This document shows, piece after piece, positions 47,540-51,430 of a DNA stretch of 64,000 nt (within the stretch, counting starts at the first letter, position 1; every line of letters starts with the position of its first letter). The position numbers and the translations under genes are program-made. Source of the DNA: Roseibium limicola (GTDB lineage Bacteria > Pseudomonadota > Alphaproteobacteria > Rhizobiales > Stappiaceae); NCBI RefSeq assembly GCF_017313085.1, contig NZ_JAFLNF010000001.1, positions 186,001-250,000 on the forward strand, given 5' to 3'. Below the pieces are notes generated by a model. That model searched no databases. It saw nothing but the letters and a program-made list of their open reading frames with translations, and was not told the origin of the DNA.

Positions 47540-48550
<1,011 letters not shown>

Positions 48551-48627: not shown

Positions 48628-49527
48628 ATGGACTGGGACAAACTGCGAATTTTCCATGCCGCAGCGCAAGCCGGCAGCTTCACCCATGCTGGTGATACGC
48701 TGAACATGAGCCAGTCCGCCGTGTCCCGCCAGGTCAGCTCCCTGGAGATGGACCTCGGCGTTCCGCTGTTCTACAGGCATGCGCGTGGGCTGCTACTGAC
48801 CGAGCAAGGCGAACTTCTGTATCGCACCGCGCGCGATGTCCTGATGAAGCTTGAGGCCGTTCAGGGCCGCCTGACTGACAGCAAGGAAAAGCCCTCGGGG
48901 ATTTTGCGTGTCACAACGACAGTCGGCCTAGGGTCAACCTGGCTGACTTCGCGGATCAAGGATTTCGTCGATCTCTTCCCCGATGTCGAGTTGCAATTAA
49001 TCTTCGACGATGACGAACTCGACTTGGGCATGCGGGAAGCCGACGTGGCAATTCGCCTGCGTCAACCGACACAGCCTGACCTGATCCAGCGCAAGCTCTT
49101 CACCGTGCACTTTCACGTCTTTGCCTCTCCGAGCTATCTCAAGGCCTTCGGAACGCCCTCCGACATGGAGGACCTGGACAAGAACCACCGCGTCGTCACC
49201 TTTGGCGAGCAGGCCCCCGCCTATCTGAGAGAAATGAACTGGCTGGAAAAGGCCGGGCGTCCGGCTCTCGATCCGCGCCGCTCGGCCCTGAAGGTCAACA
49301 ACCTGGTGGCCATCAGGCGCGCCGTTCAGGAAGGCGTCGGCGTCGCTATTCTTCCCGATTATATCATCGAGAAGGACAGTCAGCTGGTGCAGGTTCTGAC
49401 CAATGTGAAAGAAAAGGTCCCATCCTTCGATACCTACTTCGTCTATCCCTCAGAGCTGAAAAACACGGCCCGGATTACCGCCTTTCGCGATTTCCTCGTC
49501 AGCGCTGCTGAAAACTGGTCCTACTGA
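48628..49527 (+). CDS. lsrB: LysR-family regulator of the LsrB/VtlR type
   Basis: A 299-residue LysR-type regulator. The N-terminal helix-turn-helix 'MDWDKLRIFHAAAQAGSFTHAGDTLNMSQSAVSRQVSSLE' and the stretch 'FYRHARGLLLTEQGELLYRTARDVLMKLE' are nearly those of LsrB (Sinorhizobium, Agrobacterium) and VtlR (Brucella). The periplasmic-binding-like effector domain covers ~95–295. These homologues act in redox balance, envelope traits and host association and control AbcR small RNAs. The gene follows trxB and precedes a region with two terminator-ended sRNA candidates, matching the known rhizobial arrangement. ATG 48628 follows 'agggacc'. Confidence 0.9.
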   Translation: MDWDKLRIFHAAAQAGSFTHAGDTLNMSQSAVSRQVSSLEMDLGVPLFYRHARGLLLTEQGELLYRTARDVLMKLEAVQGRLTDSKEKPSGILRVTTTVGLGSTWLTSRIKDFVDLFPDVELQLIFDDDELDLGMREADVAIRLRQPTQPDLIQRKLFTVHFHVFASPSYLKAFGTPSDMEDLDKNHRVVTFGEQAPAYLREMNWLEKAGRPALDPRRSALKVNNLVAIRRAVQEGVGVAILPDYIIEKDSQLVQVLTNVKEKVPSFDTYFVYPSELKNTARITAFRDFLVSAAENWSY

Positions 49528-49936
49528 CCCCGCGCTTTGACAAAGCCCACCGTTCAATGCTTTCCACCTCAAGACTTGCGCTGGGCGCGCACCTGCGGGC
49601 TTGTACCGGTCGCGGAACATCAAGTCATCTGACAAAGACGATTCGCTCTTTGAAGCCTTGAAACTTGACGACTTTCGATTGCCCACACCCGGATTCGACC
49701 TGAAAAGACCGTAAGGCGTTAATTTAAACACGCCCATTTCGTAAGCATTTTGCTTTGCACAAATAGGCAATTCAGACACTGAAATCGGCACAAATTGTTG
49801 AAATTACTGATACGGCTACATCACATAACCGTTACAAATCGGCCATTTCGCATACCTCCCAACGAGCTATTAACTTTTTGCATAGCAGGATTGCGTGGGT
49901 GCCTCTTGTTTGCACAGCTTGTGCACCGCATATAGG
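49528..49936. promoter_or_regulatory. Gap after lsrB with upstream region of sRNA 1
   Basis: About 410 bases without a gene. The last part holds a plausible sRNA promoter: ttgcac (49910–49915), 15 bases, then tatagg (49931–49936). Upstream are repeated 'ttgcat' and 'ttgcac' elements and T-N11-A patterns that a LysR-type protein could bind. This is inferred from layout only. Confidence 0.45.
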
Positions 49937-49939
49937 CAT

Positions 49940-50071
49940 CACTGTTGGTTCACAGGCAACACACCTCCTCCCAGTGTTGCCTTACCAGCTGTTCCCCTCT
50001 GGAAGGTGATTCCTCTGCTTCGGCAGAGAATCAATTCAAACTGCCGGACCCTCGGGTCCGGCTTTTTTTTT
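49940..50071 (+). ncRNA. AbcR-like small RNA 1
   Basis: A likely ~130-base sRNA. The 5' end is estimated from the -10-like tatagg at 49931. A hairpin gcaacac/gtgttgc (49956–49962 with 49974–49980) exposes the loop acctcctccca, an anti-Shine-Dalgarno sequence like the CUCCCA motif of AbcR RNAs. A second unpaired 'gttcccc' follows at about 49991, like the AbcR UUCCC motif. A strong terminator (gccggacc/ggtccggc, 50043–50062, then nine T's) ends it. No ORF with a ribosome site crosses it. The lsrB neighbourhood supports the AbcR assignment. Confidence 0.78.
50043..50071 (+). terminator. Terminator of sRNA 1
   Basis: An 8-bp GC-rich stem with loop ctcg followed by nine T's: a textbook Rho-independent terminator, with no protein-coding gene ending nearby. 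Confidence 0.92.
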
Positions 50072-50209
50072 GCAAATACACCTCTGGCTCGCAAGCACCA
50101 TGACCGAACCAACAGACGACGCGGCAATCGCCGCGCGGGCAGGTTCGGACATTCCTGCACACGACCTCATGCGCACCATGCACCCACCTCCCCTGCGGAC
50201 ATAGCCCAT

Positions 50210-50410
50210 CGCACAACACCTCCTTCCCGGGAAGCATGACGCTAAACCTTGCCGATATTTAATCTTGAGACCACTGGAAGTGAGCGGGTGAAACACCCAG
50301 ATCATGGGAGCACGGCAAGACGTGCACATCCCCCGATGCGAGGCAGGTACGCCCCCCTCCCTGCACTCGCTCAAGAAGGCCGGTTCCCCCAGGAGCCGGC
50401 CTTTCTTTTT
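50210..50410 (+). ncRNA. Second AbcR-like small RNA candidate
   Basis: A transcript ending at the terminator 50376–50410. Its 5' end is a guess. An 'atgcac – 15 bases – acatag' arrangement at 50187–50207 mirrors the promoter layout of sRNA 1, followed by 'cacaacacctccttccc', again like sRNA 1. Further on are a small hairpin gggtg/caccc (about 50286) and a pyrimidine tract cccccctccc (about 50352). At ~200 bases it is longer than usual AbcR RNAs, so the real start may be later. Two tandem AbcR genes are known beside lsrB in rhizobia. Confidence 0.5.
50376..50410 (+). terminator. Terminator of sRNA 2
   Basis: Stem aaggccgg/ccggcctt (50376–50383 with 50396–50403) then ttcttttt. It lies before the minus-strand msrP stop, so it could also act as a shared end. 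Confidence 0.8.
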
Positions 50411-50449
50411 AGCTCTTAAATCACCAGACAGATTTGCTGCGCTTCCACC

Positions 50450-51430
50450 TCAACGGTACAGGCTCATGTCCGTCTTCCATTCAGGATAAAGCGCCGTCAC
50501 CTGTTCTGCGTAGCCATTGAACATCAGCGTGTCGCGACGCTCGCTGGTACCCAACAGACGTTCAGAGGCCTGGCTCCAGCGCGGATGCGGAACGCCTGGG
50601 TTCACATTGGCCCAGAAGCCATATTCGGACGCCTGAATAGCCTCCCACATGCCCACAGGCTGCTCCTCGACAAAGGAGAGCCTGACGATCGACTTGATGG
50701 ACTTGAAGCCGTACTTCCAAGGCAGAGCAAGCCGCAGCGGCGCGCCATACTGCTTTTGCAATGGCTTGCCGTAGATCCCAGTGGCCATGAAGGCCAACTC
50801 ATTGGTCGCCTCTGCCAGTGTCAGACCTTCCACATAGGGCCACGGATACCAGCCCTGGGTTTGCCCCGGCGCCATCTCCGGGTCCATGAAGGTTTCAAAG
50901 CGCAGATACTTCGCACTCGCCTTCGGGGACGCCATTTTCACCAATTCCGCCAGCGGAAAGCCGGACCATGGCACAGCCATCGACCAGGCCTCGACGCAGC
51001 GATGACGATACAGCCGCTCTTCCAGCGGCATCTTTTTCAACAGATCATCCATGTCCAGCGTCATTGGATTGTCCGCCAAACCATCAATGGTAACCGTCCA
51101 GGGGCGCGTCTCCAGCGCCTGCGCAGCGCGGTAGATTTCCTTGTGCGTCCCGAACTCATAAAAATTATTGTACTGGGACGTAATGCCTTCCGGCGTGATC
51201 TCACGGTCCAGGGTAAAGCCCTCATTACGTGGCACCGGATACAGTCCTGCGCTCGGGTCTTCCGCGGCCAGCCCACGCCTTGGTGTAAAGCCAATGCCTG
51301 CTCCGAAGGCCCCCACTCCCAACAGCCCTGCCGCGGCGCCCTTCATGAACGAACGGCGGTTGTGGAAGACATGTTCCGGGGTCGCTTCGCTTTCAGGAAT
51401 TTGCCACGACGGCTTTTGGATCACATTCAT
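50450..51430 (-). CDS. msrP: Protein-methionine-sulfoxide reductase catalytic subunit MsrP
   Basis: A 326-residue periplasmic molybdoenzyme (formerly YedY). The Tat signal 'NRRSFMKGAAAGLLGVGAFGAG' lies at ~24–46. The molybdopterin cofactor is held by the Cys of 'LYRHRCVEAWSMAVPWSGFPL' near 145, and the C-terminal 'YGAPLRLALPWKYGFKSIKSI' and 'FWANVNPGVPHPRWSQASERLL' are conserved. It reduces oxidised methionines in periplasmic proteins, fed by the membrane heme subunit MsrQ. No msrQ is next to it: the downstream side is the sRNA region. ATG 51430 has 'aaggag' upstream. Confidence 0.96.
   Translation of the reverse strand: MNVIQKPSWQIPESEATPEHVFHNRRSFMKGAAAGLLGVGAFGAGIGFTPRRGLAAEDPSAGLYPVPRNEGFTLDREITPEGITSQYNNFYEFGTHKEIYRAAQALETRPWTVTIDGLADNPMTLDMDDLLKKMPLEERLYRHRCVEAWSMAVPWSGFPLAELVKMASPKASAKYLRFETFMDPEMAPGQTQGWYPWPYVEGLTLAEATNELAFMATGIYGKPLQKQYGAPLRLALPWKYGFKSIKSIVRLSFVEEQPVGMWEAIQASEYGFWANVNPGVPHPRWSQASERLLGTSERRDTLMFNGYAEQVTALYPEWKTDMSLYR

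Follow-up and report, generated by a model that had tools for sequence, protein, structure and literature searches.

We identified two consecutive candidate small RNA loci, RNA1 and RNA2, behind lsrB in the window (the whole 64,000-nucleotide stretch of DNA that was analysed, part of a 4.5-Mb Roseibium genome of the family Stappiaceae). On balance we think it probable that RNA1 is an AbcR-type small RNA likely activated by LsrB, and that RNA2 is a second, separate Stappiaceae small RNA, probably with its own promoter. RNAs of the AbcR family switch off nutrient-uptake genes. The gene order trxB–lsrB–abcR of the original prediction is seen on the + strand (TIGR01292 for trxB, a match to PDB entry 9hh1 for lsrB, and RNA1 behind them), where it continues with RNA2 and then meets the convergent msrP. 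The trxB gene encodes a thioredoxin-disulfide reductase (47585-48550, + strand; TIGR01292, 410.6 bits against a cut-off of 343); the lsrB/vtlR orthologue encodes a LysR-type regulator (48628-49527, + strand), whose best PDB match is 9hh1 (417 bits, residues 1-299), the entry named in the excerpted paper on A. tumefaciens LsrB (PMC11975290); and msrP encodes the catalytic subunit of a methionine-sulfoxide reductase (50450-51430, reverse strand; NF003767, 421.6 bits against a cut-off of 207). Among the best 80 of 585 relatives, the nearest named one is Roseibium aestuarii, with 92% LsrB identity. The gap between lsrB and msrP (49528-50449) has mechanical ORFs only, as had been claimed, and both of the claimed + strand terminators are present in it: a scan of 49400-51000 listed six terminator-like sites, two of them on the + strand, against 1.9 +/- 1.4 in shuffles, and these two, at 50043-50062 (8 bp, 7 of them G-C, then T9) and 50375-50404 (13 bp, then CTTTTT), have the most base pairs of all the sites scanned. 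Rfam models at their own cut-offs found a single tRNA and nothing else across the window, and a generic promoter scan of the region found nothing, the RNA1 promoter included.

RNA1 spans about 49941-50071 on the + strand, from a putative +1 to the end of its terminator (50043-50071). The two anti-ribosome-site motifs that had been read into it are both there: UCCUCCC (M1) sits in the 11-base loop of the 5′ hairpin (ACCUCCUCCCA, about 49963-49973), and it is followed by GUUCCCCUC at 49991-49999, where the second anti-SD module, M2 (GUUCCCCUCUGGA), is identical to the ar15 consensus. The RNA folds at -55.4 kcal/mol (z -6.5), with 0 of 200 shuffles as good. The ar15 (AbcR) covariance model matches end to end at 49943-50066, with 28.1 bits and E 0.0016 (a permissive level), and the R. 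aestuarii counterpart scores 30.9 bits; since RNA1 lies below the RF02345 (ar15) gathering score of 40 bits, we call it an AbcR homologue and not a member of RF02345 at the current cut-off. At E<=10 the same model also matches in 12 of 14 control genomes, in none of them above the cut-off, so low scores alone mean little and the case rests on other evidence. In an alignment of 26 homologues (A1), the consensus helices keep 96.5% of the cells paired, compared with 31-45% (at most 45.4%) in slid-structure controls; two-sided changes occur at 13 pairs, in 58 cells against 10.8 in shuffles; and four of five covariation measures were reached by 0 of 500 shuffles, the fifth (further pair types) by 21 of 500. 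The M2 columns are invariant across the 26 sequences, which were partly picked by the M2 motif. Taken together, motifs, covariation, LsrB-type box, synteny and conservation support well the identification of RNA1 as an AbcR homologue. It is very improbable that RNA1 is some other RNA with a CCUCC loop (ar14, SorX or CcsR), for although it has weak matches to these (ar14 26.6, SorX 16.8, CcsR1 12.5 bits), the best E-value goes to ar15, the M2 match is exact and lsrB adjoins.

The constant columns of the alignment place the RNA1 promoter, CTTGTT-N17-GCATAT(A), at 49905-49934 on the + strand; the alphaproteobacterial consensus in the excerpt of PMC8844928 is CTTGAC-N17-CTATAT. Upstream of it lies a predicted LsrB-type box, GCATAGCAGGATT (49880-49892, + strand), which has the published form GCAT-N3-TG-N3-T, given for positions -61 to -49 of abcR1 (PMC8844928, excerpt), with one mismatch, A for T. 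With +1 taken as 49941, the box in the window starts at -61. The relaxed form GCAT-N3-[AT]G-N3-T is found at -61 in 36 of 37 loci and at -60 in the other, with +1 set in each at a constant distance from the -10; five of the 37 match the published consensus strictly. By analogy with rhizobia, the product of the gene just upstream, LsrB/VtlR, most likely activates RNA1 by binding the -61 box. The RNA would then act in trans, its loop CCUCCUCCCA and the single-stranded module GUUCCCCUC pairing with the ribosome-binding sites of transporter mRNAs and silencing them, probably with Hfq; activation by LsrB, the role of Hfq and the targets are what we infer from the rhizobial systems.

A model built from the 26 homologues (R1) recovered RNA1 in 44 of 45 Roseibium genomes, each at 110 bits or above, and in all 28 of the other Stappiaceae genomes searched, at 61 bits or above. 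The 18-mer of RNA1 that carries M2 (CTGTTCCCCTCTGGAAGG) occurs exactly once per genome in 44 of the 45 Roseibium genomes, and its reversed control in none; thus Roseibium has one copy of the AbcR module, not two. One Roseibium genome of the 45 (G020) has no recognisable AbcR, with an R1 score of 24 bits and no 18-mer. Candidates for extra copies in the window's own genome were set aside: at E<=10 the ar15 model gives eight matches there, and the two next in score after RNA1, the only further ones inspected (20.9 and 19.5 bits), are by eye terminator-like hairpins beside other sequence, as is a second R1 match (27.9 bits). For RNA1, the computed evidence covers the structure and its covariation, the identity of the motifs, the promoter box, synteny and the single copy of the module. 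RNA1 is a standard AbcR homologue that scores under the Rfam cut-off and is present in Roseibium as a single copy. Like AbcR1 of Sinorhizobium and Agrobacterium (alpha-r15, RF02345), it lies behind trxB-lsrB and has a predicted LsrB-type box at -61, an M1 loop, M2 and a terminator; unlike AbcR1, it falls under the Rfam cut-off and differs in part of its stems and in the middle hairpin, and the AbcR1 hosts have two AbcR whereas Roseibium has one per genome. The nutrient-control family AbcR is thereby extended to a marine genus that the present Rfam cut-off misses.

The regulator itself differs from its best-known relative. The window's LsrB contains no cysteine; at the positions of the four cysteines that 9hh1 has within the aligned region, it carries V, V, I and V. 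Cysteine-free proteins make up 45 of 81 LsrB sequences (the window plus the best 80 of 585 relatives; L106 is incomplete), while five of the 81 have cysteine at both positions 140 and 269, which correspond by alignment offset to C144 and C273 of A. tumefaciens. The C273S change in Agrobacterium LsrB raises H2O2 sensitivity (PMC11975290, excerpt). Having no cysteine, the window's LsrB cannot operate the thiol switch reported for the Agrobacterium protein, and with these counts the switch cannot be general; going by its sequence, the window's LsrB is predicted to respond to a signal other than the thiol oxidation described in Agrobacterium.

RNA2 (about 50304-50410, + strand, with a putative 5′ end) consists of a hairpin, a C-rich stretch, a second hairpin at 50343-50364 with the loop UACGCCCCCCUC, and a terminator at 50375-50410. 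The stretch 50300-50410 folds at -55.8 kcal/mol (z -6.4; 0 of 200 shuffles as good), and in a separate comparison z is -5.7 in the window and in R. aestuarii alike. A plain DNA search of 45 Roseibium genomes found, besides the window's own genome, R. aestuarii as the only match below E 1e-3, because the stems of RNA2 change fast. Thus the DNA search alone gives RNA2 in two species, and reading the gaps behind abcR gives more. We inspected what follows abcR at 50 Stappiaceae loci, 44 of them in Roseibium and six from the 28 other genomes of the family, and recognised RNA2 in ten (G000, which is the window, G009, G015, G017, G021, G024, G026, G029, G043 and G045), of which G045 is from another genus and G015 was missed by the gap scan and recognised from its folds. 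In nine of the ten, msrP comes next after RNA2; in G021, the searched stretch showed no msrP. The remaining 35 of the 44 Roseibium loci gave no recognisable RNA2: the gap to msrP is just 28-96 nt in 26 of them, and the other nine showed neither msrP nor RNA2 within the 700 nt at most that were searched. Judging by eye, we did not count as RNA2 the terminator-like sites of G001, G004, G035 and, in a short gap, G038. Five of the six loci from other genera have a gap of 192-309 nt without RNA2.

The RNAs of the ten loci share one plan: they open with a hairpin, mostly continue with C-rich sequence, form another hairpin that has CCCCC in its loop and, past a linker, end in a terminator of GGCCGG type. 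In a scripted test for a stem of at least five pairs around CCCCC, nine of the ten loci pass, with 10 to 37 of 500 of their shuffles passing; the exception, L210, has a bulge after four pairs, and its shuffles pass in 51 of 500 cases. Stem sequences vary between species (tabulated for eight of the ten loci, with L210 and L018 left out) while the CCCCC loop persists (in nine of ten by the script). RNAalifold on a MAFFT alignment of the ten RNAs recovered the terminator only, we think because MAFFT misplaces the stems, as also in the SorX-like RNAs described below.

Alignment of the regions upstream of the ten RNA2 loci shows a putative promoter-like element, which in the window reads ACTGG-N17-ACCCAGATC (50273-50303, + strand). 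CTGG occurs in eight of the ten loci and ATGG in one, followed after 17-18 bases by a sequence close to CCCCATATC; in R. aestuarii, TCTTT stands in place of CTGG. The layout first proposed for the second RNA, a gcac 15 bases before the -10, is not confirmed; what these loci share, the window included, is this different element, CTGG/ATGG-N17-18-CCCCATATC-like. The suspicion that this RNA begins later than had been estimated fits, as the part with conserved hairpins starts near 50304. A -10 of the form CCCCAT-N-T is that of heat-shock promoters. At the -10 of RNA2, five of the ten loci have CCCCATNT; the window, with ACCCAGATC, is not among them. The -10 is thus RpoH-like in five loci and only roughly so in the window, and the -35 part fits no known RpoH -35 (the S. 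meliloti RpoH1 consensus is CTTGAA-N16-CCTATAT; PMC8844928, excerpt). Transcription of RNA2 is probably from this promoter of its own, with a -10 like that of the heat-shock sigma factor (RpoH) in half of the relatives. The CCCCC in its hairpin loop could also block G-rich ribosome sites, and RNA2 could in that way be a putative companion of the same functional kind as RNA1.

The two RNAs had been predicted as AbcR1 and AbcR2. The first half of this reading stands, on motifs, covariation, synteny and conservation, with an ar15 match under the cut-off (28.1 against 40 bits); the second does not, for RNA2 has no match to ar15 at E<=10, and in the window 50304-50410 matches neither R1 at E<=1 nor the SorX-like model R2, described below, at E<=0.05. 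Assignment to ar14 or ar35 was also rejected (21.4 and 19.2 bits against gathering scores of 58.8 and 45; the R. aestuarii RNA has no such match at E<=0.5). Three + frames run across RNA2, and by eye none looks kept in R. aestuarii. Because it has its own terminator, a CCCCC-loop hairpin, a shared upstream element and no kept + frame, RNA2 is likely a real small RNA and, as judged from sequence, not AbcR2: it sits where AbcR2 does in rhizobia but differs from it in sequence. Within the literature on AbcR1 in Rhizobiales or Roseibium, among the matches listed, we know of no description of an RNA like RNA2, and the family offers a small set of companion RNAs open to testing.

RNA2 might instead be a degenerate AbcR2, that is, the second copy of an ancestral tandem that diverged past recognition and kept its stress control and anti-ribosome-site loops; we regard this as doubtful. 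RNA2 does occupy the same place behind abcR1, S. meliloti AbcR2 is likewise second in a tandem, RpoH1-driven and with a CCTATAT -10 (PMC8844928, excerpt), to be set beside the CCCCATNT of five of the ten RNA2 loci, and the terminator loop of RNA2 in G021 and G029 shows UCCUCCCAG. However, the window's RNA2 lacks an ar15 or R1 match, the M2 module and a UCCUCCC hairpin loop, and in the nine loci from Kaistia, Pleomorphomonas and Stappia (three each) R1 matches just once per locus on the + strand at E<=0.05, so that no ancestral tandem shows up in these intervening groups. RNA2 resembles the tandem, RpoH1-driven Sinorhizobium AbcR2 in its place, its C-rich loop and, in half of the relatives, its heat-shock-like -10, and differs from it in having no ar15 or R1 match and no M2, a CCCCC and not a UCCUCCC loop, and another -35. 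A more upstream start of RNA2, near 50270 and driven by CATGAC-N17-TTTAAT (50235-50263), is unlikely: R. aestuarii retains most of AAACCTNNCCGATNTTTAATCTTGA (22 of 25), but by eye this element is not seen in the other eight RNA2 loci, and 97 of 200 shuffles fold as well as 50156-50299 does. Still less do we favour the view that there is no second RNA and that the second terminator merely halts abcR readthrough ahead of msrP or else works for msrP in the opposite direction. The terminator does lie 40 bases from the msrP stop codon, and in four loci of other genera (G047, G050, G055, G060) the T-run of the gap hairpin seems by eye to be reversed; here, however, the + side has the better T-run, ahead of the terminator stand a conserved hairpin with a C loop and an upstream element, neither of which a bare terminator needs, and the 26 Roseibium with a gap of 28-96 nt manage without a second terminator.

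We also looked for small RNAs behind lsrB across the Alphaproteobacteria. Among the named lsrB loci (the best 80 of 585 relatives), 77 of the 80 fetched have a TrxB match, and R1 at E<=1e-6 places AbcR downstream of lsrB in 27 of the 80, six of which supplied sequences to the model and one of which (L039) is the same record as a seed. In Faunimonas pinastri, an R1 match of 47.8 bits lies upstream of lsrB on the other strand (L068:472-612, reverse), apparently a moved abcR. At E<=1e-6, R2 finds a SorX-like RNA downstream of lsrB in 15 other named loci, with no overlap with the R1 set (L096 among them is probably the same record as seed L133); the remaining 38 of the 80 include some that are cut short by the end of a contig. 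In a class sample of 142 genomes, 73 have an LsrB match (E<=1e-75) and 44 have SorX matches (E<=1e-3). Both are found in 35 genomes, in 26 of which the SorX-like RNA lies 153-329 bases behind lsrB on the same strand; in the other nine it does not; nine of the 142 have SorX matches without an LsrB match. R2 itself was built from 37 of 39 candidates (L192 and L197 dropped), and since RNAalifold found little structure in the SorX-like RNAs, it works mainly as a sequence model (6 pairs). Applied to the stretches downstream of 71 of the 73 LsrB loci (L131-L201; left out were G000, the window itself, and G190, a partial match), R2 at E<=1e-6 recovers a SorX-like RNA behind lsrB in 45, eight of them outside the model, with the consensus ACGTCTCCCAGACGTGAAGCCTCCCTGTT-N-AACTTGCCGG. 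None of 20 class loci tested reaches the RF02784 gathering score of 46.6 bits or passes any Rfam cut-off; one of the 142 genomes has an RF02784 match over the cut-off and is itself without an LsrB match at E<=1e-75, and one Sneathiella SorX-like copy behind lsrB exceeds the cut-off with 50.4 bits. Rhodobacter SorX (RF02784), which these RNAs behind lsrB in other orders resemble (26 of the 35 genomes with both), arises, according to the excerpt of PMC6238624, by processing of the 3′ UTR of an OmpR-like gene and not of lsrB. The SorX model gives no more than 16.8 bits on RNA1 and no match on RNA2. R1 has some weak matches on SorX-like loci (best 33 bits) and R2 found none on AbcR loci; by these sequence comparisons, AbcR and the SorX-like RNA are at most possible homologues.

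According to the excerpt of PMC11975290, LsrB is found solely in Rhizobiales; our matches across the class and the TrxB neighbour in 77 of 80 loci (best 80 of 585) suggest a wider spread. With a SorX-like RNA behind lsrB in 45 of 71 loci, LsrB plus a small RNA may be a class-wide unit. Somewhat short of an even chance, in our estimate, is the fuller proposal that LsrB with an anti-ribosome-site RNA is an ancestral unit of the Alphaproteobacteria, of which AbcR (in Hyphomicrobiales) and the SorX-like RNA would be two versions, tandem in Sneathiella, with a distinct stress-driven RNA added in some Stappiaceae and thiol sensing a later addition in some families. Within the literature searched, we found no paper treating SorX and AbcR1 together, and among the matches listed on SorX, LysR and trxB none mentions SorX. 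Should the link prove to hold across the class, work on LsrB/VtlR would have to look for a neighbouring RNA in many orders, and the cysteine-based LsrB model would need limiting to lineages that bear the cysteines.

Some loci carry more than one such RNA. Right behind lsrB, three tandem terminator-ended RNAs of SorX/AbcR-like kind occur in two records of Sneathiella and one from an uncultured alphaproteobacterium (L102:4030-4631, L103:4018-4661, L111:4017-4639), and two occur in tandem in Oceanibacterium (L089). In 10 of 42 loci (for example L139, L146, L157, L170 and L181), against a mean of 0.12 in single-letter shuffles, a palindrome, [T]GTTGC-N2-5-GCA[AG]C[A], is found ahead of the SorX-like RNA; this palindrome may be an LsrB site or a 5′ hairpin.
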